Shown in pieces: positions 2,990 to 37,800 of a stretch of DNA of 64,000 bases. The position numbers and the translations under genes are program-made. The stretch lies in contig NC_087082.1 in NCBI RefSeq assembly GCF_026151205.1, forward strand, positions 13,239,865 through 13,303,864, given 5' to 3'. The DNA is from Bolinopsis microptera (lineage: Eukaryota > Ctenophora > Tentaculata > Lobata > Bolinopsidae). Positions within the stretch are counted from its first letter, which is position 1. Each line of letters starts with the position of its first letter. The notes under the pieces are model-generated. The model saw only the letters and a program-made list of their open reading frames with translations. It was not told where the DNA came from and made no database searches.

Positions 2990-3916
2990 ATGGAGAAGAT
3001 AATCCCTTTAAGATCTTCAGAAATCCCCAAAGATAAGACCCTCTTTAAGCTTCAATTAAAATTTATTGAGGAAGGGTGGATTAAGGAGGAATGTACAGTT
3101 CAATTTTTCCGGTCGAAGCAAGGAAATATTTTTGGAATCATCTTCCATCTTGATAAGCAAGGACTGATTGACGGTCCTTTTGGGATAACCCTTTACATCG
3201 ATGACAATGCAAACATTACTGAAGTTAATACATTTCTCCAGGATATTTTACTTTGTGAAGGAAATTTAGAACGCTTTAGCAAGCAGGCTATTGGAATTGC
3301 TTTACAGTCGTCAAAGTTGTATGAATGTGTATTAAAGCGGATAGAAGAGAAAATAGGTTCACGTTATAGAGAGGAGCATTCGATTTACAAACACAAAATG
3401 TTCAAGTCTCCAATAGAATCTATGGTGGACATACCAATGCCTCAAGGCTACAAAATAGGGCCATTGTTAGAGAACCATATCAACTTTATAGTAAAACATT
3501 GGGCAATTGATATTGAGCTGCATTCGGATCCAGACACACCGACAGAGAACTTTTCAGACTTTCCATTTCGCCCATTAGTCGTATCAAATATTACAGAAAG
3601 GCCTGGATTTGGTGTATTTTCTGAGAGTAACCCTGTTACACCAGTAGCATGGGCAGCGTTTTACCCTGGAGGGGACGTGGGGATGCTCCACGTCTTAGAG
3701 AAACATCGTGGAAAGAAACTGGGTCGCATTATCCTCCGACACATGCTGAAGGTACTTCGAGAGGCACACGGTTCGGACTACCGGACACAGGGCTTTGTAA
3801 AGTTACACAATGTTGCGTCTATGAATTTGTTATCATCCGAGGGGTGGGAAGAACAGCCTTACAATAACAAACGGATCTTCTTTCACGAAGATTTTCTTCA
3901 GCAACTTAAGAAATAG
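2990..3916 (+). CDS. Glycine N-acyltransferase-like protein (GNAT fold), single exon
   Basis: A 308-residue intronless frame starting at ATG. GLYAT-family enzymes transfer an acyl group from acyl-CoA to glycine or another amino acid. The C-terminal half is the GNAT-type domain: a beta strand with VAWAAFYPGG (about 219-228), then HVLEKHRGKKLGRIILRHML (about 233-252), whose HRGKKLG fits the CoA-pyrophosphate loop (R/Q-x-x-G-x-G/A). FVKLHNVASMNLLSSEGW (269-286) matches the Asn-containing helix followed by a Gly-Trp turn. The N-terminal half fits the GLYAT N-terminal region in length only. Total length is close to vertebrate GLYATs (about 295). No signal peptide is visible. The acyl donor and acceptor cannot be read from sequence. 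Confidence 0.8.
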   Translation: MEKIIPLRSSEIPKDKTLFKLQLKFIEEGWIKEECTVQFFRSKQGNIFGIIFHLDKQGLIDGPFGITLYIDDNANITEVNTFLQDILLCEGNLERFSKQAIGIALQSSKLYECVLKRIEEKIGSRYREEHSIYKHKMFKSPIESMVDIPMPQGYKIGPLLENHINFIVKHWAIDIELHSDPDTPTENFSDFPFRPLVVSNITERPGFGVFSESNPVTPVAWAAFYPGGDVGMLHVLEKHRGKKLGRIILRHMLKVLREAHGSDYRTQGFVKLHNVASMNLLSSEGWEEQPYNNKRIFFHEDFLQQLKK

Positions 3917-4527
3917 GCGCTTTAATCAGAAATTATAGATTTTTTTAGTAATTTTAATTTTAAACAGATTTTCTATCTTTTTATGGGGATATAATCTTAT
4001 TATTAAAAGGATGACATATTTAATTCAAAGACATTATCTCTGTAATATCTAAACTAGTAACGCCGTTAGAGCCAGCCACTTTGGCTTACATTTTAAAGTT
4101 TGGCTAAGTGGTCATGATGATGATGAAACTAATACCATTATTTCGAATGACTTAGATTAACTTTTGATTAATTTGAATAAACGTTTAAGTACAGATATTT
4201 CTGTGCGAGGACCTAGAGACAGATCCTAATCCAATCAAAGCTGTTTGGTTAAAATTATATGTTGATCACCTTCTTCAGTTATATCAATATTGTTTTTAAC
4301 TAATACTTGATACGTTTTAAAACGTAAAAAATATTCTGATTTATGTTCCTTTTCACTCACTTGTTGTTGACTGATGTGATCAGGATTTATATAATTTGAA
4401 TTTAAACTCATTTATTTCAAAACGTGTCACTTCATATCTCAAAGTTCTGCAAACTAACCAAAATTATTCCTCACAAGTCATTGTCGTTAAGCTAGACTTC
4501 AAAACTGACTTCACCCGCTTTCTGAAA
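3917..4527. other. Intergenic spacer
   Basis: AT-rich DNA between the acyltransferase stop and the BTB gene. The frame upstream of the BTB start stays open from about 4396, but there is no ATG before 4528, so I do not count it as coding. No repeat or element was recognised. Confidence 0.4.
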
Positions 4528-5647
4528 ATGAAGAATAAGATACAACACACAGTGAAAGTGGTAACAAAAAGTGAAGTGATAGAATGCAGTGGAGCAGTGT
4601 TATGTCAACACAGTGGTATTCTCCAGCAACTAGTTGCTAAGGACAACGAACTTTTCCTAGATAACTACACTCACGTACAGGACTGTCTGCTAGTTCTTCA
4701 CGGAGCTGAGGTTTCTCTTAACATGGACAATATCCTGGATCTTATGAAGTTCAGTGTTCAGTTTGGTATCAACGAGGTTTACTTGCAGTGCCTGGACTGG
4801 ATTGAGACTAATTTTAGTGTGGAGAACTTTCTGGAGATATTTAATATATGCAGCAGTGTTTCAAAATTTGCAAAACTTTGTGGAACTGAGTTACTTAAAG
4901 ATCCATGTATTCATATCGCTACGTATTTGAAGATGGTTGGACCTGATGCTGTAGTGAATCTTTATAAGAGTGATTCTGAGGTCAATCAAACTGATCTGCT
5001 CAAGTTTATGTTTGCCACAAAAGTTCTCGTCAGTTGTTTTGCTGATTTGATTTGCAAAATAGTTTCGGAAGAAAACGTCGCAATGGTGCTTCCTTTGCTT
5101 TGTAACAGCTTTGATGAGATTACGAAATTCTCCGAGAGAAATTTTCGCTGTCTGATCACGAAAATTGATTCCGCATCCATTGAAACTCTTGCGCCCAAAG
5201 GATATATTGATTATAAGAAGAAGCTTTGGTCAATTCTCATGGAAGCACGATCTCCTTGTAGTATTCCTCATTTTCTGTTTGATGGGGTGATTTGTCTCAC
5301 TGATGCTATAGTTAAAGACAAGCTTTGGAAGAAAATGAACAAAGATCAAATTATAGAAGCACATAGGCTCTTTGATACACACTCGAAACATTTTATCTAC
5401 TCAGAAATTATGATTGCTTGGATCGTTGAGAACAAACCATCCCCAGGAAACTGTGACTGAACTTCTTCTGGAATTAAAACCATACCAACTTGGTCCTGAC
5501 TACGTTTCCATGTTGAATGATAAATTCAAAGTTCTTGGTTATACTGAAACCATATATCAGCTCCGTTATTTTCCACTTGGAGGCTCCCAAACCATTTCAT
5601 ATCAGAGACCATCTATCATCACCAAGTTAGTAATGGGTGCGGTATAG
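4528..5647 (+). CDS. BTB/POZ-domain protein with one frameshift near its C-terminus
   Basis: I take the first in-frame ATG (4528, MKNKIQ) as start. The N-terminal 100 residues have a BTB/POZ pattern: beta strands in HTVKVVTKSEVIECSGAVL, the CQHSGILQQLV helix, then FLDNYTHVQDCLLVLHGAEV and NILDLMKFSVQFGINEVYLQ. BTB domains dimerise and often recruit Cullin-3; no Kelch or zinc-finger partner domain is visible. The frame ends at 5460 just after a CCCC run at about 5436. Removing one C would join VENKPS to the overlapping frame that continues QETVTELLLELKPYQ to a stop at 5647. This is either a sequence error or a recent lesion. The far C-terminus (after about 5575) may be read-through of an exon end. 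Confidence 0.65.
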
Positions 5648-13832: not shown

Positions 13833-16800
13833 ATGGAGTCAACGCGCAGAGAGTTAGGTTTTGCGGAGATGATATTGCGAAAGGGACGTCCGAAGAAAAA
13901 GAAAGTTCCGGTGATAAAGAAAAGTGAGGTAGAAGAGAAGTTACTGTTTGAAATGGGGATGAGGGAGGCGGCACAAAGACTGCTATCTTCTGCGTGCTGC
14001 CCCAATCCACCAACAAAGGGGGGAGGAACCGCGCCGCGCTAGTCATATTATTAAGTGTCATTTATTTGTTAGGCACTTTTTTAACATGGCCAGAACAGTT
14101 AAAGTCACTCTTTTAGTCTAATTCCCTTATAATAATAATAATTATTATTTAATTACTAAATAAACCGCAACTAAGTAATATTTAATTTATCACCTAATTA
14201 ATCTCAATTACGCAGGTTAGACGCAGGTAAGACAATACTTACCTCCAACAGCAGAACACTAGCACTTATGACAGCACTACAAAAAGAACATGTTAAAGAA
14301 GTAGAGGATGCTCACGGTCTCACTGACTTGTAAGTTATTTTTAAAAGTTAACAATTTAGAAGTTTAATTTATTTTGTATCGCAGAAACAAGGCCTAGACA
14401 GCCAGCTTCGTATTCCTCTGCAGTTAACCACTGATAGCTAATTACTACAAACCGTTGGATTGATTATTCTGATTCTCCAAACATTGAGAAACTTCCTTGT
14501 CAGGAAAGACAAAGACGAGCTGCTGAGAGAGGAAATGATGGAATCAGTCTCACTAGCAGACGTGACAATCTCAAACATAATCGTGCCTCTGAAATGGTGC
14601 AGGATCGACCACAATAAGTACAAGACAGACTGCTGGAAGTACCAGGTGTTCTGTCTCATTAGGAGTGGGATACAGGTTCTAGATTGTTCCGAGCTGACCA
14701 AAGTGGACATTCTCACTGAGAATATCCAGCTTAAGGATACATTCGTTCTGTAAGTGCTCTTATTCTGAAGTTTTAGTAAGTCCGAACTGTATCATTTTTG
14801 CCAGATTATTTGATTGGAATAGTGTGTGGTGCTTAACGATAGCCCTCAGGGTTTTAAAATTGATTAATAAGTCTGCCCTGATCTGTATCAGGTAATTCGA
14901 TGGTAGTTAAACCTCCTTAATTGCAGGAAGGATATGGGACCGGACTTTGTTATAGACCTTGAGTTTTACTACACCCAAACTGAAGATCCTGTAAAGAAGA
15001 AAGATAAGAAGAAGGTATGCTCCGCTCTTTGTTTCTATTGTTCTCGTTAATTTCAGTCGGCGGTTCATATTCCATGTCTTTTCGATGTAGAGATATTGCT
15101 TTTCCGTGTCTATCTGTGATGATTAATTAGCATTTCCCTTAAATATGTTACATATCTTGACATATTCAGATCATCAGGTCTCTAGTCCTTGCAAGATAAT
15201 CTGTGATATCATATCCAAATACCTTACACGGCGATCTTACACCAATATTCGAAATTGCCTCCAAAATGTTGGAGTACTTTCAGGCGGGCGCGGCGTCATG
15301 TTTGTTAATGCATGTGCGCAAAGCACGCACGTACGTACGTAACGTACATTGCATACCATGACAGTTTATTTATTATATTTTTTATATTTCTTGATTCATT
15401 GCCATTCGACGAAAACAAAGCCTTCAAAATTTTGAATTTTGCTTCACAATCAATCAAACTGTCAGCAAATTCAATAAGTCGCACTATCAATTTACACTAT
15501 CAGATTCAACTTAACTGAAAAGTTAAATTAGTTATTAAAATTTCTCAATTTCTTCTGTTTTCAGGCCGAACAAACAGAAGCACCCGCGTAAGTACTGGGT
15601 GTTAGTCAAAAATATTCAAACAAACCCTTGATTTATTTACTTTTTCTACATCACTACAGAGCACATCCTGCATGAAACATTACCTTATCACTTTTTCAAA
15701 CAACTCTCTTCTATCTCCCTTCCTGACAGGCCTGTGTTTGCGATAGCAGCAACCGCCTCCCTCTCCCTAGCACACTGCAATATCTGGTCTCAGAAAGCAG
15801 TCCCTGAAGTCGGGTGCTAAAGGGCTACCAGCGCACATTACAGCCCCTACCTCTCTCCCTGACCTGCCTCCTCTACCTGTTCTCAACTTTTATAGAGCAG
15901 AGATAAACGTTACTCCTCATTTCACTTTGAAACCTTCAAAGGAAGGGTTCCTTGGTTAGTTTGACGGAATCCTGCAGTTCATGTGTTTCACGGAACTTAT
16001 ATTTTATCTAATTTAACAGGTCAAAACGTTTAAAACTATCTAAAAACACCGTGTGCACAGTGATCCTTCGCAGCGTTGCTCAGTGCCTCTGAGGCGTTAT
16101 TGTGATAGATTAGCCACCGTATCATTAAAATTTCTGTTCCAGATGTCCAGCAAATGAGTCAAGGTATGCCTCACTGGGTAAAGTGTTGGTGCTCACTCCA
16201 AGGAATGTACTTGAAGTCATGGAAACAGCCAGAGGACCAATTCGTTTCAGAGCCGCTACTCATTATCGAGATTAACGAGGTAACTCATAAATGATATGCG
16301 TATTTCTAAACTTGCTACCGTTAGTTAGAATGAAAAACAAGCTTTTTCTGTAACGTTTTGAAATGAAAAAGATATCTGGATGGAAATCTAGTCAATGATT
16401 GAGAAATATTTCAGCACATGATGCTGGATCACGTACCAAGGACATCAGTTCAGCGACCCAACAATATCCACATTAGTTACTGCAAGGCACCCTATGTTGA
16501 TCATTTCCTTAGTACCGACACAAAGGAGGATCGCATTCTTTGGGAGATCGGTTAGTTCATCTCAGTACAGGTCCTGTTTCCTGGAAAGTTGGATGTGTAA
16601 ATGTTTAACTAATTGAGAGCACGTTTCCTTGATTCTTGTAGTGGATTTGAGTGCTTTTTTCACCACTGCAGTGCTTTTATGTTCCGGGGTAGGTGGAACA
16701 TATTTTGGTTAAAAATGGTTCTGGCCTGTCCCTAACCATCATAAAAATCAAGTTTCGAACTCGCTCAATACTCTCAACCGCCCACTTCGGGGCGGCCACT

Positions 16801-19800
16801 CCCAGGGGCCACGCCCCTCCCAAAATGAACCGAATCCCAGCTAAAATCAAGACTTTAAAATCTTTAACCCCTGTAGTGCCATTTAATGTCCGGGTAGGTG
16901 GGACATGTTTTAATTAAAAATGGTTCTGCCTGTCCCAAACCATCATAAAAATTCAAGTTTCGACCTCTCAACCCACCCGGGCCACTCCCAGGGCCACGCC
17001 CATCCTAAAATTACAGAATTAATCTAAAATCTAGACTTTAAAATCTTTACCCCTGTAATGTTTTATGTTCCGGGGTAGGTGGAACATGTTTTAGATTAAA
17101 AATGGGTTCTGGCCTGTCCCAAACAATCAAAAAATCAGTTTTCGACCTCTCAACCCTCTCGGGCCACTCCAGGGGCCACGGCCCATCCAAAATGAGCGAA
17201 ATCCAGCTAAAGTCCAGACGTTAAAATCTTTCCCCTCCTGTAGTGCTTTTATGTTCCGGATGGTGGACATGTTTTAAGATTAACAATGGGTTCTGCCTGT
17301 GCCCAAACCATCAAAAAAATCATGTTCGACGATCTCAACCCACAGCGGGCCACTCCCAAGGGCCACGCCCATCCAAAATGACCAAATCCAGCTAAATCCA
17401 GACTTTAAAAATCTTTACCCCTGTAGTGCTTTTTATGTTCTCGGGTAGTGGACATGTTTTAGATAAAAAATGGTCGTCTGCCAGTCCCAAACCATCATAA
17501 AAATCAAGTCTCGACCTCTCAACCACACGGGCCACTCCCAGGGGCCACGCCCATCCCAAAATGACCGAAATCCAGCTAAAATCCAGACTTTAAAACACAT
17601 CGTTTTACCCCTGAGTGCTTTTTGTTTCCGGTGGGTGAGGTGGAACATTTTTAAGATTCAAAATGGTTTCAGCCTGACCCAAACCATCATAAAAATCAAG
17701 TTTTCGACCTCTCAAACGCCACTAGGCCACTCCCAGGGGCACGCCTCATCCAAAATGACCGAAATCAGCTAAATTAATCCCGACTTTAAAGATCTTTACC
17801 CACTGTAGTGCTACTTATGTTCCGGGGTAGGTGGACATGTTTTAGATTAATAATGTTTTGCTGTCCCAAACCACCAAAAAATCAAGTTTTTCACCTCTCA
17901 ACCCACCCTAGCAAATCCCAGGCCACGCCCATCCAAAAATTACTGAAAATATGCTAAAATACAAGGACTTTAAATCATACCCTGTAGTGCTATTATGTTC
18001 CCTCCTGGGGTAGGAGGAACATGTTTTTAGTTTAAAAATGGGTTCTGACTGTCCCAAACCATCATAAAAATCAATTTCGTTACGCGACCTCTCAACCCAC
18101 TCGGGCCCTCCCATGGGGCCATGCCCATGCCCAAAATGAACCGAAATCCATCTAAATCCAGACTTAAAAATCTTTACCCCTGTAGTCTGTAGTGCTATAT
18201 GTTCCGGGGTAGGTGGGACATGTTTTTAGTTTTAAAATGTTCTACCTGTCCCCAAAACATCATAATAATCAAGTTTTCGCTCGACTCTTCAAACCCACTC
18301 AGGCAGGGCCACTCCCAGGGCCACTGCCCATCCCAAAATTTCCGAATCCAGCTACAATCACAGACTTTAAAATCTTTACCCCTGTAGTGCTTTTAGTTCC
18401 GGGTAGGTGGGACCTGTTCTAGTTTAAAAATGGGTTCTGCCTGTCCCCCAAACCATCATAAATAATCAAGTTTCGACCTCCTCAACCCACTCGGGCCACG
18501 CCCATACTAAAATGACCGAAATCCAGCTAAATCCAGACTTTTAAAATCTATTACCCCTGTAAGTGCTTTTATGTTCCGGGTAGGTGGAACATGTTTTAGA
18601 TTACAATGGGTTCTCTTCCTGTCCCAAACCATCATAAAAATCAAGTTTTCAGGTCCGATCGACCTCTCAACCCACTCGGGCACTCCAGGGGCACGCCCAC
18701 CCAAAATGACCGAAATCCAGCTAAAATCCAACATTAAAATCTTTACCTCCCTGTAGTGCTTTTATGTTCCGGGGTAGGTGGACATGTTTTAGATTAAAAA
18801 TGGGTTTCTGCTGCCTGCCCCAAACCACATAAAAATCAAGTTTCGCGACCTCTCAACCCACTCGGGGCACTCCCAGGGGCCACGCCCATCCCAAAATGAC
18901 CGAAATCCAGCTAAATCCAGACTTAAAAATCTTTGCCCCTGTAGTCTGTAGTGCTATATGTTCCGGGGTAGGTGGGACATGTTTTAGTTTTTAAATGGGT
19001 TCTACCTGTCCCAAACCATCATAATAATCAAGTTTCGACCTCTTCAACACCCACTCCTCAGATGCCACTCCCAGGGCCACGCCATTTCAAAATTAACCGA
19101 AATCCAGCTAAAATCCAGACTTTAAATAATCTTTTACACCCCTGATTGCTATTTATGTCCGGGGTAGGTGGGAACAAGTTTTAAAGATTAAAAATGGGTT
19201 CTGCCTGTCCAAAACCAACATAAAATCAAGTATCGACCTCTCAACCCACCCGGCCACTCCCAGGGGCCACGCCCCATCCTAACATTACTGCATATAATGC
19301 TAAAATCTAGACTTTAAAAGCATTTACCCCTGTAGTGCTTTTATGTTCCGGGGTAGGTGGAAATGTTTAGATTAAAAATGGGTTCATGCCTGTCCCAAAC
19401 CATCATAAAAATCAGTTTCGACCACTCCACCCTCTCGGGCCACTCCCAGGGGCCAGCCCAACCCAACATGATGAAATCCCCCTACTAAGACCAGACTTTA
19501 AAAATCTTTTACCCCTGAAGTGCATTTATGTTCCGGGATAGGTGGACATGTTTAGATTAAAAATGGTTCTGCCTGCCCAACCATCATAAAAATCAAGTTT
19601 CACCTCTCAAAACCCACACGGGCCACTCCCCAAGGGCCACGCCCAACCCAAAATGACCGAAGATCTCATGCTAAATCCAGAACTTTAAATCTTTACCCCC
19701 CTGTATTGCTTTTATGTTCCGGGGTAGTGGAACAGTGCTTTAGATTAAAAATAGGTTCGTGCCTGTCCCAAACCATCCTAAAAATCAAGTTTCGACCTCT

Positions 19801-22800
19801 CAACCCACACGGTGCCACTCCCAGGGCCACGCCCGATCCCAAAATGACCGAAATCCAAGCTAAAATCCAACTTTAAAATCTTTACACCCCTGTAGTGCTT
19901 TTATTTTCGCGGTAGGTGGGACTTGTTTTAGATTAAAAATGGGTTTCAGCCTGTCCAAACCATCATAAAAATCAAGTTTCGACCTCTCAACCCACTCGGG
20001 CACACTCCCAGGGGCCTCGCCCTCCTAAAATACTGAAATTAATCTAAAATCTAGACTTTAAAATCTTTAACCCCTGTAGTGCTTTTATGTTGCCGGGTAG
20101 TGGGACATATTAGATAAAAATGGGTCTGCCGGTCCCATACCATCATAAAAATCAAGTCTCGAACCTCTTCAACCCACACGGGCCACTCCCATGGGCCCGC
20201 CCCTCCCAAAAAGACCGAATCCAGCTAAAATCCAGACTTAAAATCTTTAACCCTGTAGTGCTTTATGTTCCGGGTTAGGTGGAACATGATGTATATAAAA
20301 ATTGGGTTATCTGCCTGTCCCAAACCATCATAAAAATCAAGTTTCCGACCACTCACCCACTCAGGGCCACGTCCAGGGGCCACGCCCAACCCAAATGACC
20401 GAAATCCAGCTAAAATCCAGACTTTAAAATCTTTACCACCCCTGTAGTGCTCTTATGTTCCGGGGTAGGTGGGACAGTTTTTAGATAAAAAATGGGTTTT
20501 TGCCTGTCCCAAAACCACCATAAAATAAAGTTTCGACCTCCAAAAACCCACTCGAGCCACTCCCAGGGCCACGCCCATCCTAAAATTACTGAAATTAATG
20601 CAAAAACTAGACTTTAAAATCTTTACCCCTGTAGGTGCTTTATGTTCCGGGTAGGTTGGAACATGTTTTAGGTTAAAAAATGGGTTCTGACTGTCCCAAA
20701 CCATCATAAAAATCAAGTTTCGACCTCTCAACCCACTCGGCATCCAGGGCCATGCCCATCCCAAAAGACCGAAAACCACTAAATTCCAGACTTAAAAAAA
20801 TCTTTACCCCTGAAGTCATATCGTGCTATATGTTTTCCGTATGTTGGACATGTTTTTAGTTTTAAAATGGGTTCTACCTGCCCCAAACCATCAAATAATC
20901 AAGTTTCAGAACTCTCAACCCACTCAGGCCACTCCCATGGGCCACGCCCCATCCCAAAATTACCGCAAATCCAGCTACAATCCAGACTTTAAAATCTTAC
21001 CCATGTAGTGGGCCCCCCTTTTTTATGTTCCGGGGTAGGTGGGACATGTCTAGTTTAAAAATGGTCGCCTGGCCCAAAACCATCAAAATAATCAAGTTCG
21101 ACACTCTCAACCACTCGGCCACGCCCATACCAAAATGACCGAAATCCACTAAATCCAGACTTAAAATCTTTACCCCTTGTAGTGCTTTAAGTTCCGGGGT
21201 AGTGAACATGTTTAGATTAAAAATGGGTTCAGCCTGTTCCCAGAACACATCATAAAAATCAAGTTTCGACCTCTCAAATCAAACCCACCTCGGTCCACTC
21301 CCAGGGCCACGCCATACCAAAATAGGACAGAAATCCAGCTAAAAATCCAGACTTTAAAATCGTTACCCCTGTAGGCTTTGATGTTCAGTGTAGGAGGGAC
21401 ATGATTTTAGATTAAAAATGGGTTCTGCTGTCCCAAACCATCATAAAAATCAAGTTTCGACCTCTCAACCCACGTCGGGGCCTCCCAGGGCCACGCCCAT
21501 CACAAAATGACCGGAAATCCATCTAAATCCAGACTTTAAAAATCTTTGCCCCTGTATACGTAGTGCGATATGTTTCCAGGGTAGGTGGACATGTTTTAGT
21601 TTTTTTAAAATGGGTTCTACCTGTCCCAAAACCATCATAATAATCAAGTTTTCGACCTCTCAACCCACTCCAGGCCACTCCCAGGGGCCACGCCCATTTT
21701 CAAAATACGCAGAAATCCCAGCTAAAATCCAGACTTTAAAATCTTTAAACCCCTTTAGATGCATTTATGTTTCCGGGGTAGGTGGGACATGTTTTAGTTA
21801 AAAAGGGATCTTACCGTTCGCAAATACCATCAAAAAAATCAAGTTTTCGAGCCTTTCGACCACTCAGGGAGCCACTCCCAGGGCCACGCCCATCCCAAAA
21901 TTCACCCGAAATCCAGACTAAAAATCACAAACTTCAAAATTCTTTACCGCTGTAGTGCGTTAACGTTTACGGGTAGGTGGGACATGTTTTTGTTTAAAAA
22001 TGGTCTACCTGTCCCAAATAACCATCATAAAAACAAGTTTCGACCTCTCCCCCTCTGAGGCCACTCCCAGTGGGCCACGCCTTACCCTGAAAAAGCAACA
22101 GTAGTGGGGTTGGGCAAAACAAACGTTACATACGTTTGAGTCTTATACCACCACTGTGTTTTCATATTATGTTACCGGCCCCCCAAAACTTTGCAGATGG
22201 CATGCTGAACAACTCATTCGGAGGATTCCTCGCCAATGTTCAAAAATTTGAATTTTTAGACACACCCATATAATATTAAATCACCTATATTTTTCTTTCC
22301 GGACATGCTAGACGCCCATTTATTTGAGATTACTGCAGATTATTATTGTTGCATCTGATCTGAAACATAATTAGGCAAACGTATTTGAAAATGACGAAGT
22401 TATCAAGCAAATCAATGTATCTCGTTAACAATATTGATTTGGTGATTATGGAATATGTCACATTGAATTTGGTTCCCCTGTGCAATTTGACGGGGCCAGC
22501 TAATCACCTCATCAGTAATCGAATCACCTGATCACACGTAATGGACAAACTCGTCATGCCTCGTATCCTTGGTCATCTGAGAGGCTACAACTCTCATTTT
22601 TTTTCCAGATACAAACGTAATATGAATGGCCCAAATAACACCCTATACAACTTGGCTTCGATCGGATTATCAAAACATCAATAAATGCATTCATAAACCT
22701 TCATTAAATAAAATATTTAAAATGAAAAATGAATATTCTTTGATTTAATATATTCCTCGAATGGAGTGGTGATAGTAAGTCATACCAAAAAGAACACCCC

Positions 22801-25800
22801 GGAACAGGGGTGTAGGAAGCGGGGGGGGGGGCAGGGGGCCATCCCCCCTCGCGCCCTCCCCATGAAATCAGGCAAGGGGCAAAAAGGCCAACAATTTTTT
22901 GAAAAAATTGTTTTTCCCGAAAATTTTACAAGTCAAAAATTTTGTAAGTAAAAGATTTTTGGACCTGAGGGTCCCCCTTTGTAATGCGATCTCGGAAGGC
23001 AGGCCCCCCTTTGCGAATACGAGCTTCGAAGCGGGAGCAACTTTCAGAGGTACCTATCGAGTATGACTTGACCGAAAATTTTCGAAGTCAAAAATTTTCA
23101 AAGTTTTCCTTGGAAACTACTTTGTCCAGTTTTCCTGCTACCCTGATCATTATGACCAAAACTATTTTTTCGTTTTCCGAAGTTCGATATAAGATTTTGA
23201 CTCGAGGGACCCCCTTGTAATGCGATCTCGAAGGCAAAGGGCCCCCCCCCCCCCCCCCCCCCCCCCCCTTTTGCAAACGAGCTCGGAAGCGGAGCCAGCT
23301 TTCAGAGGTACGTATCGAGAGATGACTCGGACCGGAAATTTTCTAAGTCAAAAATGTTCAAAAGTTTTCTCGGAAACCTACTTTTGTGTCATGTTTTCTG
23401 CAACCCTGATCATTATGAAGCCAAAAATGTTTTTTTCGGTTTATTCGAAGTACGATATAAGATTTTTGGACTCGAGGGTCCCCCTTTGTAATGCATCTCG
23501 GAAGGCAGCCCCCCCCCCCCTTGCAATACGATCTCGGAAGCTGAGCTCAGCTTTCAGAGGTACGTATCGGAGAATGACTCGGACCGAAAATTTTCAAAAT
23601 CAAAAATTATTAAAGTTCTTGAAAACTACTTTGTTCATGTTTCCTGCTACCCTGATCATACAACAATGTTTACCTGGGTAAGGTCTCCCTCCTAGTCGGT
23701 TATGGAGTGGCCTGCATACACACATCGCGTTGGCGGCGTAAAACATATGTCTCCCCAACTGTACTCGTTTGGTAAGCCAAGCTTTCTGTTGTGTTGTTGT
23801 CGATGTTTTTCAACACCTGTAAACTTAGCAGCATCTAGCATCTTCGAGTACGCAGGACTTCCCAGTTCTTACGGTCTGCCCTTGACCACTTTCCATAATT
23901 TGGCTTCCAGTTCAACAGAAATCTCGTTAGGGTAGAGTCCTGGCATTCTAACTAACATTCCATATCATACCAACGTAGCCTGGCAGCACTGATGAAAGTC
24001 CTCAACAGACTTGATGCCAGCCCTCAAAGAACTCTTCGATGGTTCACATGAAAGAAACCTTTAATCCTAAGGATCCTTCTCAAGTAGGTTTGATGGAAAA
24101 CCTCGAAGCGTTTCATCTGCTTTTTGTGAGAGGTTCCAGACTTCAGCTACAAACAATAAGATGGTGAGGACAGCAGCCCTATAGATCCTGATCTTGTTGG
24201 AGTCTCTTTATAGTCTGCTATTCCAAATGTTCCGAGCTGATGAAAGCGCCATTAGCCTTCTGGATACGGACATCCAGGTCTCTGTTGATTGTCCCACTCC
24301 CCACTGATAGTTTCACCTAGGTAACAAAGTGCTAACCTGCTCGACGGTTCACCCTCAACCGGTCTGTTCACTACAATCACCTTGATGAAAGTGAAGGTTC
24401 CCCCCCGCTGGGAGGCGCACTTGCTTACAGCCATGCATTGGGTCTTCTTTGCATTTATTCTGAGCCCACAGCGTAGGACAGTAATGAACAAATAGATCAG
24501 TTGACTCCTTTAGCCCTTCCCTGAGGTTTCCCATAATAGCCAGTCATCAGCATAATCGGTGTCCAGAATGACGCATTTCCTCGACCGTCTTCATCTCTTT
24601 CTGCAGCACTGCGCCTTGACTGATGAACTTGTTGGTCTCAGCCAGAATGCAGAAAATTTAGGCATAATAAAGACAGGAGGTCTTGAATGTCACCCTGGAC
24701 CTTGCCTGAGTTAACAATCAAAACCAGTCTGTTAGCGCCCGCATTAACCCTCACCGGAACGTCATGTACCCCCAAAAAATGACTGAAATATTCTGACAAT
24801 ATATTTCAGGCAGCCCATAGTGTCTCATACAGGCACCAAATAAATTGCCCTAACTGATAGAATTTCGAAACGCTGCCCTTGAATCGACAAAATTAATGTA
24901 AAGAGAATTTAAAACCCCGACATTTATGAATAATAGTTTCAGAGAATAAATCTGATCAATACATGAGCGTTCTGTCTAAATCCGCACTGATTTTCCCTGA
25001 GAATACACTCCATACCAGCATGTAACAGCTTAAGAAGAATCATCCCCTGAAACAGCTTTGATGCTGTAGACTTAAGGTGATCCCTCGTTTTCCCGCAACT
25101 GAAGTGTCTCCTTTCATCCCAATACAATGAATTACACCCTTTAACCAATCTCAGGAACATCTCTTCTTCCCACACATTCTTTGAATAGACACCTAGTTGA
25201 TTCAACTAGAGCACTCGCACCTACTTCAGTTGCACGTTTTCTTTCCCTCGTCCACATCTCTGGGCTTTTGTTGTTCTTAACTTTGTCAGGGAATAACTAA
25301 TCTGTCTCTGGTGGTTGGTCCATCCGAACAAGAGAGAGAGTCAAAGATGGGGGTTGGGGTGTACTGTATCAAGGTCTGCAAGGTCGACACTTGATAATGA
25401 GGGTTCAGAAGTTCAGTAAAGTGCTCCTTCCACCTATCTCCTCTGCTGTTGGGAACCGTGATCTCCTACCGTCTTGTCCCGGACACAAGATGCTTGTGGC
25501 TAATTTCTTGTTCTTTACCATAGAACTTCTTGATCTTTGCCCATACCCTCACGCGCTTCTGACCTTTGCTCCCTGCATCCTCAAGATCAGTAGCTACACT
25601 AACTGCCAGTTATTGTCGACTAGCTGCTGCTTTTCTTGACTAACTATTAAGTTTTAGAATATTCTGACCTGTTAGCGTCCGAGTTTGGGTCTATTGCGCT
25701 TAAACGTGCCCGCTGAATCAATAAAACCCATTGGATTTCCCGTGACAGGTTTTGCTCCTTTGCCTTCCGGGGTCTTTTTCCTAGTACCTTCCAGTGAGAC

Positions 25801-28800
25801 CTCAGTGACGGTCGACTGAGGATTACTCACTCGCCCGCGGTTGAGTGTCCCGAAGGGACGACCTCGACTATCCAGACTTGCAAATTCGTTTTGAAAGCAC
25901 AGTTGTACTTCTGTAACCGTAGTACTATCCCCTCCAGGCGCTCGATGGCATGCACATTGGGCCTGTTTGGCGTTGATCTTTGTCACTTGAACTGAAGTTT
26001 TGGATTTTCAGCAGTCCTAGAACCAATAGATGATCGGGAGGCCGATGTCTGCCTCCGCGACAGTACCCTAACATCAAAAGAGATTGACGAAACCGCCTGT
26101 TTCCCCCTTCCCCCCCAATGCAGATATGATCTATCTATTGACGGTGAGACCCGTTGGGGGACCGCCATGCCCTTGTAATGTCTTTGTGCAGAAGAGAGTT
26201 CCCCCGATGACAAGCTGGTTCGTCGCACAGAAATCCACAAGTCTTTGTCACCGTAGTCATTTGATGAGCTATGGAGTGATTCCCCACCGATGAGACCGCT
26301 TCACTTCCATTCTGTCTGATTGTTACTTTTGCTTAAAATCGCCGAGCAGTAACTTGATATCGTGACGAGGTACCCTCAAAATTATCTGTGAGTGTCCTAT
26401 AAAACTTATCTTTCTCATCTCCTCTGGGCACCCTCATTTGGAGCATAGGCCACAACAACAGAGATTGATTTCTTACTATGCAGCCTAGCAGTTAAACCCG
26501 CTCCGATGTGGGAGTGAACGAATATCAGGGAGTTTTCTGATGTTTTGAAAGACTGAGACCGACTCCCTGTCTCTTGATCCCGTCGACTCTACCGGAATGG
26601 ATGAGTAGACTGCCATTGTCCAGTAGAGTGGTGCCAGATCCAGGCATGTGAGTCTCGGTGATCCCCAAAAGATCCAATCTGTACTGATCAATGTTTTGAC
26701 TAAGTTGGTAGAGCTGTGTAGATGAGCTGACAAGAGATAGAACGTTCCATGTTCCAAAACGTAAAAACTGTTTGCAATAATTTACTGGATTGGATTTGTT
26801 GGAAGCAGGGTCAACAAGGATGATCTGTTGACTAATAAATCTGGTCGGATGACGAGTACCCTGATCATTATGAGCCAAAAATATTTTTTTCGGTTTTCGA
26901 AGTTCGATATAAGATTTTGGACTCGAGGGTCCCCCTTTGTAATGCGATCTCGGAAGGCAGGCCCCCCCTTTGCAATACGAGCTCGGAAGCGGGAGCTCAG
27001 CTTTCAGAGGTACGTATCGAGAATGACTCGGACCGAAAATTTTCTAAGTCAAAAATTTTCAAAGTTTTCTTGGAAACTACTTTTGTTCATGTTTCCTGCT
27101 ACCCTGATCATTATGAGCCAAAAATATTTTTTTCGGTTTTCGAAGTTCGATATAAGATTTTGGACTCGAGGGTCCCCCTTTGTAATGCGATCTCGGAAGG
27201 CAGGCCCCCCCTTTGCAATACGAGCTCGGAAGCGGGAGCTCAGCTTTCAGAGGTACGTATCGAGAATGACTCGGACCGAAAATTTTCTAAGTCAAAAATT
27301 TTCAAAGTTTTCTTGGAAACTACTTTTGTTCATGTTTCCTGCTACCCTGATCATTATGAGCCAAAAATATTTTTTTCGGTTTTCGAAGTTCGACATAAGA
27401 TTTTGGACTCGAGGGTCCCCCTTTGTAATGCGATCTCGGAAGGCAGGCCCCCCCTTTGCAATACGAGCTCGGAAGCGGGAGCTCAACTTTCAGAGGTATA
27501 TATAGAGTATGACTCGGACCAAAAATTTTCAAAGTCAAAAATGTTCAAAGTTTTCTTGGAAACTACTTTTGTTCATGTTTCCTGCTACCCTGATCATTAT
27601 GAGCCAAAAATATTTTTTTCGGTTTTCGAAGTTCGATATAAGATTTTGGACTCGAGGGTCCTCCTTTGTAATGCGATCTCGGGAGGCAGATTTTAGCTTA
27701 ATTTCAGTAATTTTGGGATGGGCGTGGCCCCTGGGAGTGGCCTGAGTGGGTTGAGAGGTTGAAACTTGATTTTTATGATGGTTTGGGACAGGTAGAACCC
27801 ATTTTTAAACTAAAACAAGTCCCACCTACCCCGGAACATAAAAGCACTACAGGGGTAAAGATTTTAAAGTCTGGATTTTAGCTGGATTTCGGTAATTTTG
27901 GGATGGGCGTGGCCCCTGGGAGTGGCCTGAGTGGGTTGAGAGGTCGAAACTTGATTTTTATGATGGTTTGGGACAGGTAGAACCCATGTTTAAACTAAAA
28001 CATGTCCCACCTACCCCGGAACATAAAAGCACTACAGGGGTAAAGATTTTAAAGTCTGGATTTTAGCTGGATTTCGGTAATTTTGGGATGGGTGTGGCCC
28101 CTGGGAGTGGCCTGAGTGGGTTGAGAGGTCGAAACTTGATTTTTATGATGGTTTGGGACAGGTAGAACCCATTTTAAACCTAAAACATGTCCCACCTACC
28201 CCGGAACATAAAAGCACTACAGGGGTAAATATTTTAAAGTCTGGATTTTAGCTGGATTTCGGTAATTTTGGGATGGGCGTGGCCTGAGTGGGTTGAGAGG
28301 TCGAAACTTGATTTTTATGATGGTTTGGGACAGGTAGAACCCATTTTAAAACTAAAACATATCCCACCTACCCCGGAACATAAAAGCACTACAGGGGTAA
28401 AGATTTTACAGTCTGGATTTTACCTGGATTTCAGTAATTTTGGCTTTTTGTGATGGGCGTGGCCCCTGGGAGTGGCCTGAGTGGGTTGAGAGGTCGAAAC
28501 TTGATTTTTATGATGGTTTGGGACAGGTAGAACCCATTTTAAAACTAAAACATGTCCCACCTACCCCGGAACATAAAGAAAAATCAACAATAAACTATTA
28601 CAGGTTAGATGTTTACCTGAGTTCTATATCTTTCGATAGCAACTCCATCTATAAATCTGATTAGCAAGTCATTCTGTATTCCACCAGTACTTGTGATCCT
28701 GGTTGCAGCTTTCAACATGTTTTATGGGCCCAACACTCAGCTTTCACAGTTTATGACTTCTGGCCTCCTTGCGATGTCGTAGCAGGTAGACCATTTCTTG

Positions 28801-31800
28801 TTGTCGCGGGCTAACCAGATTGTATAGGAACATCGAAGAGCGACCAAAGCAGCCTCATTCAGGGCTTTATTCTTCGTTCTCTTCGCCAATCCAAAGTAGT
28901 TGAATAGAGCTGGTACAGTATGGTGCCAGAAGCCCCTACACCCAATCTCTATTGTAAAGAGCAGAGCTTTCCAACCGCACCCGTCGATGCCAGGAATCAG
29001 CTCTCTGTTGTAGCGTGCTTCTTTACGTGCTACTTGGTCACTGAAGTTACTCTCGTCACCACAAGTCAGTTCAATCAGAACTACTTCTCTCAAACTATCC
29101 GACCATACTACCATGTCGGGTCTCTCCGCTGTGTTGTAGATGTGCTGTGGGAACTGGGCAGGTAGTGTATCCTCGTCCCATATCAGCTTCCAGTCTTTCG
29201 CTCTCTCAAAGGGCCTCTCCTTCCTCAGCTTTGGCTTTGGGTGTTCATACTTCCCATCCTTCGACTTGAACCGTATCCATTCTTTGTCGGAGGTCGTGGA
29301 ACCTGAGGAATTGTACATCTTGAGTTGGTCAAGCAAGGCTCCGGCTATAACACGTAGGACGTTGTCATGTCTCCAGTTGTACCTTTTGGAGTTTCTTGCT
29401 ATACTGCAGACGGCTAGGATGTGCTTGATGTTGCACGTCTTCCAACCACAAAGTGTACAATTTCCTGTACTCGAGTAGTTCCACAATTTCATGTTTGCAG
29501 GGGTATTAGCCACGTCGTGTGTCGAGTTTAGGTGGAATTTAAGGAGAGCCGGGCTCATCTTGTAGTTGTAGATAAGGCTGTTCCATCCTAAGTCTAACTG
29601 CATCGTGTTCTCCCATGTCAAGAACTTGCCCTGTACTCCCTTGTTTACCAGGGTGACTAGCATGTTGTTCTCTGACACCGATTCTACCAGTTGTCTTAGC
29701 TTCTGCCTCTCAGTCAACTTTGGTTTGCATCCGAGTCCTACTCGGTCTTTAGTCACTACTCCAACCAACTCCTGGAAGTAGAGATCTCGCTCTCTTGCCG
29801 TCAGCTCCGTTGTATAAGACCATCTCGGGCTGTTCTCCTGTTTCTCTCTCTTGTTATTATAGGCTTCTACAACTTTGGTGTCATCACTGTTCTTCAGGGC
29901 GTGTCCCTTTGATACCTGAAGAGACTTGTATAAGTCACTTAGCTTCTTCAAGTTTAGCCCGAAGTAATCCTTGCTCCTGTACAGGACTGTCACAGTAATT
30001 GATCTAGTAACACCCAACCACTTCTTCAAGAATCTGGTGCAGATAGCATCCAGTTCCTACACAAAACTTACAGGAAGGTTGTAAATCATCAGATCCCAGG
30101 ACATCTTGCTAGTCAGCATGTTATTGTAGATCCAACACTTCATGACACCGTTGAGACCACACTCATCCACTGTCTGAAACAGAGTTTTTAGTTTGTCTTC
30201 AATCCGTTGTTCAGTGGCGTAACGAAAGGCCCTGCTGACCCCGCTGTGCAGGGGGGCGCCGTCTTAGGGGGGCGCCAAATCGTCGTTCGAATGTGGGACA
30301 ATTTCGAAAACTTAACTAAAGTACTAGCAAAACTGCGCGTTTTGCTCTAGATACACACTTTTTTAGAGATTTTACCGGCGTATTCTTTAAAATCACCTAG
30401 TTTGTTCAATTTTAGGGAGGGGCACCAAAAGGGGAGGGGGCGCCAACAGGGGGGCGCTTTTTTCGGCAGGGGGGCGCCAACAGGCAACGTTACGCCACTG
30501 CCGTTGTTTAGTGTCATTTAACCCTAGATCGACATAGATCCAGTGGCCCAGGAACTTAATCGGGTTGTTTCCTACATAGCTGATTATCTGGCCGTCAATC
30601 AATATCTCTGGGTCATAAGCCTGGTACGTACCATCTATCACCTTCATTCCCAGGGAGACACACTTGCTAGGCTTGGCCTTCATTTTCCTACTCCAATCCA
30701 AAAACTGCTCCATCAACTCTATCTGCTTCTTTACCTTCTCTAGTCTGGAGGACATAAGTGTTAGGTCATCTGCAAAAGCCCGATTCGATGTAGGTTGCGA
30801 GCTAAAGGAGGGCTTATAACCCAGTTCTTTTTGATCTTGTAGAAGATCTAACAGTAGGTTGAATACAATCAGGAACAACACTACTGAAAGAGGGTCTCCT
30901 TGAAAGAGGCCTAACATGTAGTAGAACCAATTTGACTTCCAGTCTTTGGTTACCACCCTTACAATCAGTTCATCATAGTACTTAAACATGTAATCTATGA
31001 GCCATTCAGGGAATTTGTAATGCCGGAGGGCATAGAGGATCAAGTTGTGTGGGACTCTGCCATATGCATTCATTAAATCTACCCAGACAACGAATATCTG
31101 GCGTCTAGTAGTTTGGCGTCTTTTAGTTCTTCCATAAGCACTTGGGTGTGTTCAAGACAACCAGGAGTCTTCTTCAGAAAGCCCTTCTGAACTGACTTGT
31201 CTATGTACTTATTAGACACCATATAATACCACTACAGGGGTAAATATTTTAAAGTCTGGATTTTATCTGAATTTCGGTAATTTTGGGATGGGCGTGGCCC
31301 CTGGGAGTAGCCCGAGTGGGTTGAGAGGTCGAAACTTGATTTTTATGATGGTTTGGGACAGGTAGAACCCATTTTTAAACTAAAACATGTCCCACCTACC
31401 CCGGAACATAAAAGCACTACAGGGGTAAAGATTTTAAAGTCTGGATTTTAGCTGGATTTCGGTAATTTTGGGATGGGCGTGGCCCCTGGGAGTGGCCCGA
31501 GTGGGTTGAGAGGTCGAAACTTGATTTTTATGATGGTTTGGGACAGGTAGAACCCATTTTTAAACTAAAACATGTCCCACCTACCCCGGAACATAAAAGC
31601 ACTACAGGGGTAAAGATTTTAAAGTCTGGATTTTAGCTGGATTTCGGTCATTTTGGGATGGGCGTGGCCCCTGGGAGTGGCCCGAGTGGGTTGAGAGGTC
31701 GAAACTTGATTTTTATGATGGTTTGGGACAGGCAGAACCCATTTTTAAACTAAAACATGTCCCACCTACCCCGGAACATAAAAGCACTACAGGGGTAAAG

Positions 31801-34800
31801 ATTTTAAAGTCTGGATTTTAGCTGGATTTCGGTCATTTTGGGATGGGCGTGGCCCCTGGGAGTGGCCCGAGTGGGTTGAGAGGTCGAAACTTGATTTTTA
31901 TGATGGTTTGGGACAGGCAGAACCCATTTTTAAACTAAAACATGTCCCACCTACCCCGGAACATAAAAGCACTACAGGGGTAAAGATTTTAAAGTCTGGA
32001 TTTTAGCTGGATTTCGGTCATTTTGGGATGGGCGTGGCCCCTGGGAGTGGCCCGAGTGGGTTGAGAGGTCGAAACTTGATTTTTATGATGGTTTGGGACA
32101 GGCAGAACCCATTTTTAAACTAAAACATGTCCCACCTACCCCGGAACATAAAAGCACTACAGGGGTAAAGATTTTAAAGTCTGGATTTTAGCTGGATTTC
32201 GGTCATTTTGGGATGGGCGTGGCCCCTGGGAGTGGCCCGAGTGGGTTGAGAGGTCGAAACTTGATTTTTATGATGGTTTGGGACAGGCAGAACCCATTTT
32301 TAAACTAAAACATGTCCCACCTACCCCGGAACATAAAAGCACTACAGGGGTAAAGATTTTAAAGTCTGGATTTTAGCTGGATTTCGGTCATTTTGGGATG
32401 GGCGTGGCCCCTGGGAGTGGCCCGAGTGGGTTGAGAGGTCGAAACTTGATTTTTATGATGGTTTGGGACAGGTAGAACCCATTTTTAAACTAAAACATGT
32501 CCCACCTACCCCGGAACATAAAAGCACTACAGGGGTAAAGATTTTAAAGTCTGGATTTTAGCTGGATTTCGGTCATTTTGGGATGGGCGTGGCCCCTGGG
32601 AGTGGCCCGAGTGGGTTGAGAGGTCGAAACTTGATTTTTATGATGGTTTGGGACAGGCAGAACCCATTTTTAAACTAAAACATGTCCCACCTACCCCGGA
32701 ACATAAAAGCACTACAGGGGTAAAGATTTTAAAGTCTGGATTTTAGCTGGATTTCGGTCATTTTGGGATGGGCGTGGCCCCTGGGAGTGGCCCGAGTGGG
32801 TTGAGAGGTCGAAACTTGATTTTTATGATGGTTTGGGACAGGCAGAACCCATTTTTAAACTAAAACATGTCCCACCTACCCCGGAACATAAAAGCACTAC
32901 AGGGGTAAAGATTTTAAAGTCTGGATTTTAGCTGGATTTCGGTCATTTTGGGATGGGCGTGGCCCCTGGGAGTGGCCCGAGTGGGTTGAGAGGTCGAAAC
33001 TTGATTTTTATGATGGTTTGGGACAGGCAGAACCCATTTTTAAACTAAAACATGTCCCACCTACCCCGGAACATAAAAGCACTACAGGGGTAAAGATTTT
33101 AAAGTCTGGATTTTAGCTGGATTTCGGTCATTTTGGGATGGGCGTGGCCCCTGGGAGTGGCCCGAGTGGGTTGAGAGGTCGAAACTTGATTTTTATGATG
33201 GTTTGGGACAGGCAGAACCCATTTTTAAACTAAAACATGTCCCACCTACCCCGGAACATAAAAGCACTACAGGGGTAAAGATTTTAAAGTCTGGATTTTA
33301 GCTGGATTTCGGTCATTTTGGGATGGGCGTGGCCCCTGGGAGTGGCCCGAGTGGGTTGAGAGGTCGAAACTTGATTTTTATGATGGTTTGGGACAGGCAG
33401 AACCCATTTTTAAACTAAAACATGTCCCACCTACCCCGGAACATAAAAGCACTACAGGGGTAAAGATTTTAAAGTCTGGATTTTAGCTGGATTTCGGTCA
33501 TTTTGGGATGGGCGTGGCCCCTGGGAGTGGCCCGAGTGGGTTGAGAGGTCGAAACTTGATTTTTATGATGGTTTGGGACAGGCAGAACCCATTTTTAAAC
33601 TAAAACATGTCCCACCTACCCCGGAACATAAAAGCACTACAGGGGTAAAGATTTTAAAGTCTGGATTTTAGCTGGATTTCGGTCATTTTGGGATGGGCGT
33701 GGCCCCTGGGAGTGGCCCGAGTGGGTTGAGAGGTCGAAACTTGATTTTTATGATGGTTTGGGACAGGCAGAACCCATTTTTAAACTAAAACATGTCCCAC
33801 CTACCCCGGAACATAAAAGCACTACAGGGGTAAAGATTTTAAAGTCTGGATTTTAGCTGGATTTCGGTCATTTTGGGATGGGCGTGGCCCCTGGGAGTGG
33901 CCCGAGTGGGTTGAGAGGTCGAAACTTGATTTTTATGATGGTTTGGGACAGGCAGAACCCATTTTTAAACTAAAACATGTCCCACCTACCCCGGAACATA
34001 AAAGCACTACAGGGGGTAAAGATTTTAAAGTCTGGATTTTAGCTGGATTTCGGTCATTTTGGGATGGGCGTGGCCCCTGGGAGTGGCCCGAGTGGGTTGA
34101 GAGGTCGAAACTTGATTTTTATGATGGTTTGGGACAGGCAGAACCCATTTTTAAACTAAAACATGTCCCACCTACCCCGGAACATAAAAGCACTACAGGG
34201 GTAAAGATTTTAAAGTCTGGATTTTAGCTGGATTTCGGTCATTTTGGGATGGGCGTGGCCCCTGGGAGTGGCCCGAGTGGGTTGAGAGGTCGAAACTTGA
34301 TTTTTATGATGGTTTGGGACAGGCAGAACCCATTTTTAAACTAAAACATGTCCCACCTACCCCGGAACATAAAAGCACTACAGGGGTAAAGATTTTAAAG
34401 TCTGGATTTTAGCTGGATTTCGGTCATTTTGGGATGGGCGTGGCCCCTGGGAGTGGCCCGAGTGGGTTGAGAGGTCGAAACTTGATTTTTATGATGGTTT
34501 GGGACAGGCAGAACCCATTTTTAAACTAAAACATGTCCCACCTACCCCGGAACATAAAAGCACTACAGGGGTAAAGATTTTAAAGTCTGGATTTTAGCTG
34601 GATTTCGGTCATTTTGGGATGGGCGTGGCCCCTGGGAGTGGCCCGAGTGGGTTGAGAGGTCGAAACTTGATTTTTATGATGGTTTGGGACAGGCAGAACC
34701 CATTTTTAAACTAAAACATGTCCCACCTACCCCGGAACATAAAAGCACTACAGGGGTAAAGATTTTAAAGTCTGGATTTTAGCTGGATTTCGGTCATTTT

Positions 34801-37800
34801 GGGATGGGCGTGGCCCCTGGGAGTGGCCCGAGTGGGTTGAGAGGTCGAAACTTGATTTTTATGATGGTTTGGGACAGGCAGAACCCATTTTTAAACTAAA
34901 ACATGTCCCACCTACCCCGGAACATAAAAGCACTACAGGGGTAAAGATTTTAAAGTCTGGATTTAGCTGGATTTCGGTCATTTTGGGATGGGCGTGGCCC
35001 CTGGGAGTGGCCCGAGTGGGTTGAGAGGTCGAAACTTGATTTTTATGATGGTTTGGGACAGGCAGAACCCATTTTTAAACTAAAACATGTCCCACCTACC
35101 CCGGAACATAAAAGCACTACAGGGGTAAAGATTTTAAAGTCTGGATTTTAGCTGGATTTCGGTCATTTTGGGATGGGCGTGGCCCCTGGGAGTGGCCCGA
35201 GTGGGTTGAGAGGTCGAAACTTGATTTTTATGATGGTTTGGGACAGGCAGAACCCATTTTTAAACTAAAACATGTCCCACCTACCCCGGAACATAAAAGC
35301 ACTACAGGGGTAAAGATTTTAAAGTCTGGATTTTAGCTGGATTTCGGTCATTTTGGGATGGGCGTGGCCCCTGGGAGTGGCCCGAGTGGGTTGAGAGGTC
35401 GAAACTTGATTTTTATGATGGTTTGGGACAGGCAGAACCCATTTTTAAACTAAAACATGTCCCACCTACCCCGGAACATAAAAGCACTACAGGGGTAAAG
35501 ATTTTAAAGTCTGGATTTTAGCTGGATTTCGGTCATTTTGGGATGGGCGTGGCCCCTGGGAGTGGCCCGAGTGGGTTGAGAGGTCGAAACTTGATTTTTA
35601 TGATGGTTTGGGACAGGCAGAACCCATTTTTAAACTAAAACATGTCCCACCTACCCCGGAACATAAAAGCACTACAGGGGTAAAGATTTTAAAGTCTGGA
35701 TTTTAGCTGGATTTCGGTCATTTTGGGATGGGCGTGGCCCCTGGGAGTGGCCCGAGTGGGTTGAGAGGTCGAAACTTGATTTTTATGATGGTTTGGGACA
35801 GGCAGAACCCATTTTTAAACTAAAACATGTCCCACCTACCCCGGAACATAAAAGCACTACAGGGGTAAAGATTTTAAAGTCTGGATTTTAGCTGGATTTC
35901 GGTCATTTTGGGATGGGCGTGGCCCCTGGGAGTGGCCCGAGTGGGTTGAGAGGTCGAAACTTGATTTTTATGATGGTTTGGGACAGGCAGAACCCATTTT
36001 TAAACTAAAACATGTCCCACCTACCCCGGAACATAAAAGCACTACAGGGGTAAAGATTTTAAAGTCTGGATTTTAGCTGGATTTCGGTCATTTTGGGATG
36101 GGCGTGGCCCCTGGGAGTGGCCCGAGTGGGTTGAGAGGTCGAAACTTGATTTTTATGATGGTTTGGGACAGGCAGAACCCATTTTTAAACTAAAACATGT
36201 CCCACCTACCCCGGAACATAAAAGCACTACAGGGGTAAAGATTTTAAAGTCTGGATTTTAGCTGGATTTCGGTCATTTTGGGATGGGCGTGGCCCCTGGG
36301 AGTGGCCCGAGTGGGTTGAGAGGTCGAAACTTGATTTTTATGATGGTTTGGGACAGGCAGAACCCATTTTTAAACTAAAACATGTCCCACCTACCCCGGA
36401 ACATAAAAGCACTACAGGGGTAAAGATTTTAAAGTCTGGATTTTAGCTGGATTTCGGTCATTTTGGGATGGGCGTGGCCCCTGGGAGTGGCCCGAGTGGG
36501 TTGAGAGGTCGAAACTTGATTTTTATGATGGTTTGGGACAGGTAGAACCCATTTTTAAACTAAAACATGTCCCACCTACCCCGGAACATAAAAGCACTAC
36601 AGGGGTAAAGATTTTAAAGTCTGGATTTAGCTGGATTTCGGTCATTTTGGGATGGGCGTGGCCCCTGGGAGTGGCCCGAGTGGGTTGAGAGGTCGAAACT
36701 TGATTTTTATGATGGTTTGGGACAGGCAGAACCCATTTTTAAACTAAAACATGTCCCACCTACCCCGGAACATAAAAGCACTACAGGGGTAAAGATTTTA
36801 AAGTCTGGATTTTAGCTGGATTTCGGTCATTTTGGGATGGGCGTGGCCCCTGGGAGTGGCCTGAGTGGGTTGAGAGGTCGAAACTTGATTTTTATGATGG
36901 TTTCGGACAGGAACTACCTATCTAAACGCTAAAACATGTGCCACCTACCTCGGAACACAAAGGAACTACAGTGGTAAAGATTCTCGATCTGGATTTTACC
37001 AGGATTATAGTAATCTTGGGATTGGCATGGCCTCTGGGAGTGGTTTGAGTGATTCAAGAGCTTAAAACTAGGGGTTTGTGATGGTTTGGGATATGTACTA
37101 CCTATTTAAACACCAAAACATGTTTCAAATAGTCAGCAACACAAATCATCTCAGGGCCCAGGGGTAAAGATTCTCATTCTGGATTTTTAGGGATTTTTCA
37201 CAGATTTCAAGCTATTTGGGATTGGCGGCCTGAGTGGGATGGATGTGTTACTTAGATTTTCATATCTTATAAGTGTCTATAAAAGTATAAGCACGAGCAG
37301 TTTATTGAGACTTCTGACTTCTACCGTCGTAGATTCTACAATGATAAATATTGTAAAGTACGTGCGGCGCGCAAAATCCACTACAAAATCCACTACAAAA
37401 TTTAAGGAAACGTCTTCTGACTAATTTTCACAAATCATAATATCACTCTCAGTTTTATTTTATGACTATAATCTTTTTTGTTTTTAGCTAAATTTAAATC
37501 ATGTAATTCCCCAGTGTTACGTAAAGCAATGATAAACTCGAGCACATGGCATCCCAACAAGCTAAGTTCAGCTGAGGTACGTATATTTTTTCCCGATCCA
37601 TGACTCAAAGTGCCGAAGGCACAAAAGAGTCAAGGACAAGGGTTAGCGATCGAGGTTTTTTTTAAATATGGTAGCTTTGAGACCGTGCGACCGTGCCTGC
37701 GAGTGTGCGACCGTACCTGCCCTCGCGCACTGTTATCGCCCACGTGACTACCTGCGCAAAGTTATTTTGCGCACAAATCTGAATTAAATAATTGTCTCGC

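Follow-up and report, generated by a model that had tools for sequence, protein, structure and literature searches.

A candidate foldback transposon with satellite arms in an intron of an anillin/rhotekin-like gene of the ctenophore Bolinopsis microptera

The window analysed here, a stretch of 64,000 nucleotides from Bolinopsis microptera (contig NC_087082.1; C11:13239865-13303864 of a genome of 264.65 Mb in 232 contigs), contains a predicted anillin/rhotekin-like gene whose intron 8 holds a candidate foldback transposon with arms built of ~185-bp tandem repeats. All positions without a contig name are those of this window. Exon 8 (16415-16550, plus strand) is modelled as an open frame preceded by AG and followed by GT, and ends in phase 1. 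Exon 9 (37488-37576, plus strand) is followed by GTACGT. Only one of its three frames is open, and this is the frame that fits the phase-1 donor; exon 9 is therefore a plausible continuation of the gene, as the first-pass annotation of this DNA had proposed. Intron 8 in its present form (16551-37487, plus strand) opens with a GT donor (16551) and closes with an AG that ends at 37487.

The element occupies positions 16615-37419 (20,805 bp) and is flanked on both sides by the heptanucleotide ACTAATT (16608-16614 and 37420-37426). It starts with the left inverted end GAGAGCACGTTTCC... (16615-16648) and terminates in the right inverted end, which on the reverse strand reads CAGAAGACGTTTCC... (37386-37419). 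The left arm (16659-22081, minus strand) is composed of ~185-bp monomers. The right arm is on the plus strand and comprises a first part (27689-28577) and a main part (31223-37187), the latter being 99% homogeneous up to 37043 and continuing in diverged monomers. The two oppositely oriented ~185-bp arrays noticed at first pass are indeed present within the intron, at 16794-22081 (array call) and at 27689-28577 and 31223-37043.

The borders of the element were seen in comparison with the rest of the genome. Among the matches listed for two junction queries (301 bases at the left and 451 bases at the right junction), those to the left query begin elsewhere only from ~16605-16615 inward, and those to the right query reach only ~37419-37427. 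Approximately 30 copies were paired by eye from these matches and 15 of them were fetched, making 16 with the window copy. Since the left query overlaps a part of the monomer, the choice of these copies was not independent of the arrays. The ends GAGAGCACGTTTCC (left) and CAGAAGACGTTTCC (right, reverse strand) are common to the fetched copies. In all 16 copies the left array is on the minus strand and the right array is on the plus strand, and the copies with both ends range from ~1.3 to 20.8 kb in length. The end pattern, with at most two mismatches, has 156 matches genome-wide, compared to none with the reversed control. At C5:13629766-13630443 three right-type ends lie ~325 bases apart, forming a tandem repeat of the element end.

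Eighteen loci were given to the test for target-site duplications, one-base offsets being allowed, and the 14 loci with both ends were counted. Four loci (C5_13.6, C3_2.55, C7_8.93, C7_9.53) were dropped, the fetched stretch containing no intact right end, and two others (L049, L055), for which one end was fetched, were not entered. A duplication was found in 12 of the 14 copies: it is 8 bp long in 11, including C8_16.38 with a one-base offset, and 7 bp long in the window copy. Among the 182 mismatched flank pairs that served as a control, none agreed over 6 bp or more, and three agreed over 4-5 bp.

Thus the copies share the features by which foldback elements are recognized: long inverted terminal regions, tandem repeats within the arms, and target-site duplications of nearly constant length. 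Judged from the sequence, the window block is a single transposon rather than a satellite locus accompanied by separate transposons. Very probably, it is a non-autonomous foldback transposon with arms of ~185-bp monomer arrays, inserted into a ~125-nt intron of the anillin/rhotekin-like gene with an 8-bp target-site duplication, of which 7 bp are still readable. The 20.9-kb complex of satellite and transposons described at first pass retains its layout and its place in intron 8, although it is better described as one transposon (16615-37419) with two nested long interspersed nuclear elements (LINEs). The element would be moved by a transposase encoded elsewhere in the genome, its arms may change in length by unequal exchange, and its core may be inverted by recombination between the arms. 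The host gene would still be transcribed across the element, which would be removed by splicing as part of an enlarged intron 8.

The element lies 64 and 68 nt from the two splice sites of intron 8. Intron 8 less the element measures ~125 nt (64 + 68 - 7, the duplication being counted once), which is close to the size of intron 7 (135 nt). Because of this short intron before the insertion and the open, phase-matched exon 9, transcription through the element is favoured over a gene cut in two, and the gene is probably transcribed across it.

The exon joins are our own model, and some of the borders are approximate. The joined exons score 59.7 bits with PF08174, the Anillin domain (E 5.6e-16; cut-off 24), and also resemble solved chains of anillin (best E 2.8e-09), hence the predicted host gene is anillin/rhotekin-like. 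Rhotekin proper carries an N-terminal HR1 repeat that binds Rho, and the gene may resemble rhotekin in this region; the HR1 family had no match in the joined exons with these approximate borders. The PH domain PF00169 scores 18.8-20.8 bits in this gene, below the curated Pfam cut-off of 25.1, and a weak match to the anillin PH domain is also present. The joined exons score 18.8 bits compared to 19.4 bits for exons 7-8 alone, and the match stops before the junction of exons 8 and 9. Thus the profile score does not support exon 9 as a part of the PH domain, and at most the last few positions of the profile could lie beyond the junction. Since the match is below the threshold and does not rise when exon 9 is added, the first-pass claim that the array splits the PH domain is weak: a cut through the middle of the domain is not indicated. 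A search for a paralogue of the PH exons in the genome yielded matches at the chance level only (best E 0.75), and one match in C6 across the junction proved to be a short repeat, not a paralogue. Upstream of the host gene there are two long single-exon open frames, 2972-3916 (314 amino acids) and 4375-5460 (361 amino acids).

The interior of the element contains a conserved non-coding core of ~700 bp (22091-22806, minus strand) and ~243-bp repeats, also on the minus strand, in two parts (22957-23659 and 26857-27688). The parts are separated by LINE 1 (23660-26856, minus strand), which is flanked by the 12-bp duplication TACCCTGATCAT at 23648-23659, where the first part of the repeats terminates, and at 26857-26868. 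LINE 1 has a match to the Exo_endo_phos domain below the cut-off. LINE 2 (28578-31222, minus strand) is nested within the right array and encodes a reverse transcriptase (RVT_1, E 5.9e-17; zf-RVT, 20.4 bits, below the cut-off). Neither LINE has a match in the other element copies compared. The core and the ~243-bp repeats recur among the copies. The core was found in 11 of the 16 copies, in the minus orientation in five and in the plus orientation in six; the other five have no core match.

A stretch of ~9.9 kb in the left half of the element (16635-26542), within a contig of chromosome scale, resembles raw reads in its errors, as judged by comparison from 16615 inward. The left arm has 5.3% substitutions (69 transitions and 173 transversions) and 54 insertion or deletion (indel) events per kb, most of them involving a single base (121 out of 133 among the deletions, 104 out of 153 among the insertions). 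The right arm (31223-36900) has 0.2% substitutions and 0.4 indel events per kb. Thus the homogeneity ascribed to the arrays at first pass is observed in the right array, whereas the left array departs from it by what looks like sequencing error. A similar pattern is seen in LINE 1. Over 3,041 aligned bases it differs from the copy L052 by 105 substitutions, of which 25 are transitions, and by 77 insertion and 64 deletion events. Beyond the indel at 26542 the alignment contains no further indel and a single mismatch (26817). The LINE query has 41 non-self matches with 87-91% identity to the window. Seventeen share a length of exactly 2,648 bases, compared to 2,701 bases in the window (counted by eye); it is thus the window copy that is the odd one.

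Natural decay of the left arm was considered and ruled out by the indel-rich error signature and by its abrupt stop at 26542 inside a LINE. Rather, the divergence of the left arm looks like a sequencing error or assembly artefact, and the stretch 16635-26542 is probably a gap fill. Other element copies are mostly cleaner than the left arm in the window. The artefact may recur in C8_15.25 and C3_2.55: the former (L038/L039, C8:15253341-15266941) has 20 and 28 indel events per kb in the left and right arrays and is perhaps a second unpolished fill, and the latter has 8 such events per kb in its right array. Among the libraries named for the species of this genome project are PacBio CLR, HiFi and Iso-Seq; for B. 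microptera the paper gives assembly by wtdbg, scaffolding by HiRise, gap closing by TGS-Gapcloser, and polishing by pilon with Illumina reads (PMC10232365). The observed pattern would fit a gap fill in a repeat beyond the reach of short-read polishing.

Could the block be a true heterochromatic satellite locus that grew inside the gene and was later invaded by transposons? The long right array, with its 99% homogeneity, would be expected in this case. A 28-mer from the monomer has 1,595 matches in the genome; of the 100 matches listed, all from C1-C3, 71 lie within or beside end-marked intervals (by eye), and 29 are outside any end-bounded interval that could be named, therefore some arrays have no recognized ends. 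However, the ends are shared, the target sites are duplicated, and the arrays are paired and inverted in other copies as well, which rules out a satellite locus of this kind; we consider it hardly credible. The heterochromatic satellite of the first-pass annotation gives way to monomers that sit on several chromosomes, inside mobile elements bounded by ends. The ~9.9 kb of raw-read-like errors, their abrupt end at 26542 and the similarity of the left half to a gap fill raise another doubt, namely that the scaffold was misjoined at the element, or that only one haplotype carries the insertion. However, the flanks share a 7-bp duplication beside correct ends, as predicted by one insertion. Such agreement of the two gene flanks argues against a misjoined scaffold, and so partly answers the concern, raised at first pass, that the arrays might be misplaced. 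As for a second allele, none was seen: among the matches listed for the flank queries, those covering the unique flanks all fall at this locus. Hence a misjoin or a single-haplotype insertion is improbable.

A foldback insertion may be real and the gene nonetheless broken, with a transcript that ends or starts inside the element and no longer joins exon 8 to exon 9. An insert of 20.8 kb with long inverted arrays in a ~125-nt intron could hinder transcription or splicing, and the lack of improvement of the PH match by exon 9 agrees with a broken gene. However, exon 9 keeps its reading frame, and the splice sites are also intact and lie 64 and 68 nt clear of the element, although this is not a test of transcription. 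On balance we consider a broken gene unlikely. Several observations weigh against an intact gene carrying a foldback transposon. Exon 9 adds nothing to the PH score. Two of the 14 copies have no target-site duplication, and the window copy has only 7 of the 8 bp. The length of the left arm cannot be trusted. The 29 monomer matches outside end-bounded intervals should be counted here too. Finally, no transposase was recognized in the copies read, cores included, among the rows listed, with the long frames in the cores of the other copies being outside the Pfam scan.

The search for an autonomous partner of the foldback element gave the following results. In an end-bounded interval of 17.8 kb, the first 9.0 kb contain a long LINE frame and, as read by eye, no transposase; none was found either in two whole end-bounded intervals and a part of a third one. 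Comparison by eye placed no hAT match (150 of 365 candidates scored) and no MULE match (131 of 131 scored) inside an end-bounded interval that could be listed. Searches with the P-like and KDZ families had no match in the genome; since the control genomes gave no match either, this silence is no evidence of absence. A weak match to the hAT dimerisation domain was observed in the window at 61170-61355 (C11:13301034-13301219, minus strand; 39.6 bits, E 9.2e-8). A LINE open frame of 923 amino acids lies at 704-3475 of L049, beside an end of the second subfamily described below.

There are two subfamilies of the element, distinguished by their ends, GTAGTGG in the first one and GTAGGGG in the second one. 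In two copies of the second subfamily, L053 and L054, both ends are present and related monomers form arrays on either side; the target-site duplication is 8 bp long in L053 and absent in L054. The monomers change together with the ends. In the first subfamily (16 copies), monomers with GTAGTGCT are a clear majority in 15 copies, the exception being C7_8.93, where each kind is represented by a single monomer. All four copies of the second subfamily have a majority of monomers with GTAGGGGA. Minority GGGA monomers were found in C2_18.03 (one), C3_8.0 (one) and C5_4.52 (two), and the stretch fetched for the latter includes a part of an adjoining copy of the second subfamily. Copies of both subfamilies stand almost end to end, ~30 bases apart, at C5:4517916-4528316 (L043, L055).

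One possibility is that the satellite monomer carries putative transposase-recognition sites and that selection or conversion keeps them in agreement with the ends. Ends and many monomers changing in step would be expected if the arrays multiplied binding sites matched to the ends. However, shared descent together with conversion, with no role in binding, could explain the co-variation as well as selection does, and the recognition-site role, although possible, is rather doubtful.

Long inverted arms of tandem repeats are found in the FB elements of Drosophila and the TU elements of sea urchin, where the repeat units are much shorter than the ~185-bp monomer. By description, the closest known kind is Tetris of Drosophila virilis, also a non-autonomous foldback element, with tandem repeats of ~220 bp (TIR-220) in its inverted arms and a non-coding middle (PMC4079207). 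The same paper also reports duplications of 8-10 bp and a satellite-like expansion of the arm repeats, and there, too, a transposase was not found (PMC4079207). The Tetris arms are up to 1,735 bp long, compared to an array of several kb on each side here, and satellite arrays, described apart from the element, reach 66 copies (PMC4079207); the likeness is one of description. Galileo of Drosophila, from the P superfamily, is similarly foldback-like and has arm tandem repeats with extra transposase-binding sites (PMC4079207). These repeats parallel the motif common to the ends and monomers of the ctenophore element. Unlike the latter, for which the P-like search was silent here as in the control genomes, Galileo has a known transposase.

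Foldback transposons as such are known already, and ctenophores are a candidate new phylum for them: our literature search found no report of a foldback element in ctenophores. Many integrations of transposable elements have been described at looping promoters of Mnemiopsis, and the section on ctenophore loops contains nothing on this element (PMC12221973). The copies in the ctenophore B. microptera thus represent a candidate family of foldback elements. For the locus considered here, a gene split by heterochromatic satellite is replaced by a mechanism, in which a foldback transposon would deliver satellite into an intron. Lengths and divergence of arrays in this assembly can be artefacts of gap filling. 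The arms of the element could form a long hairpin in the pre-mRNA. As the end motif and the monomer appear to co-vary, the origin of the satellite becomes testable. If the monomers do carry recognition sites, the element would itself be a source of homogeneous satellite and would place it in introns.

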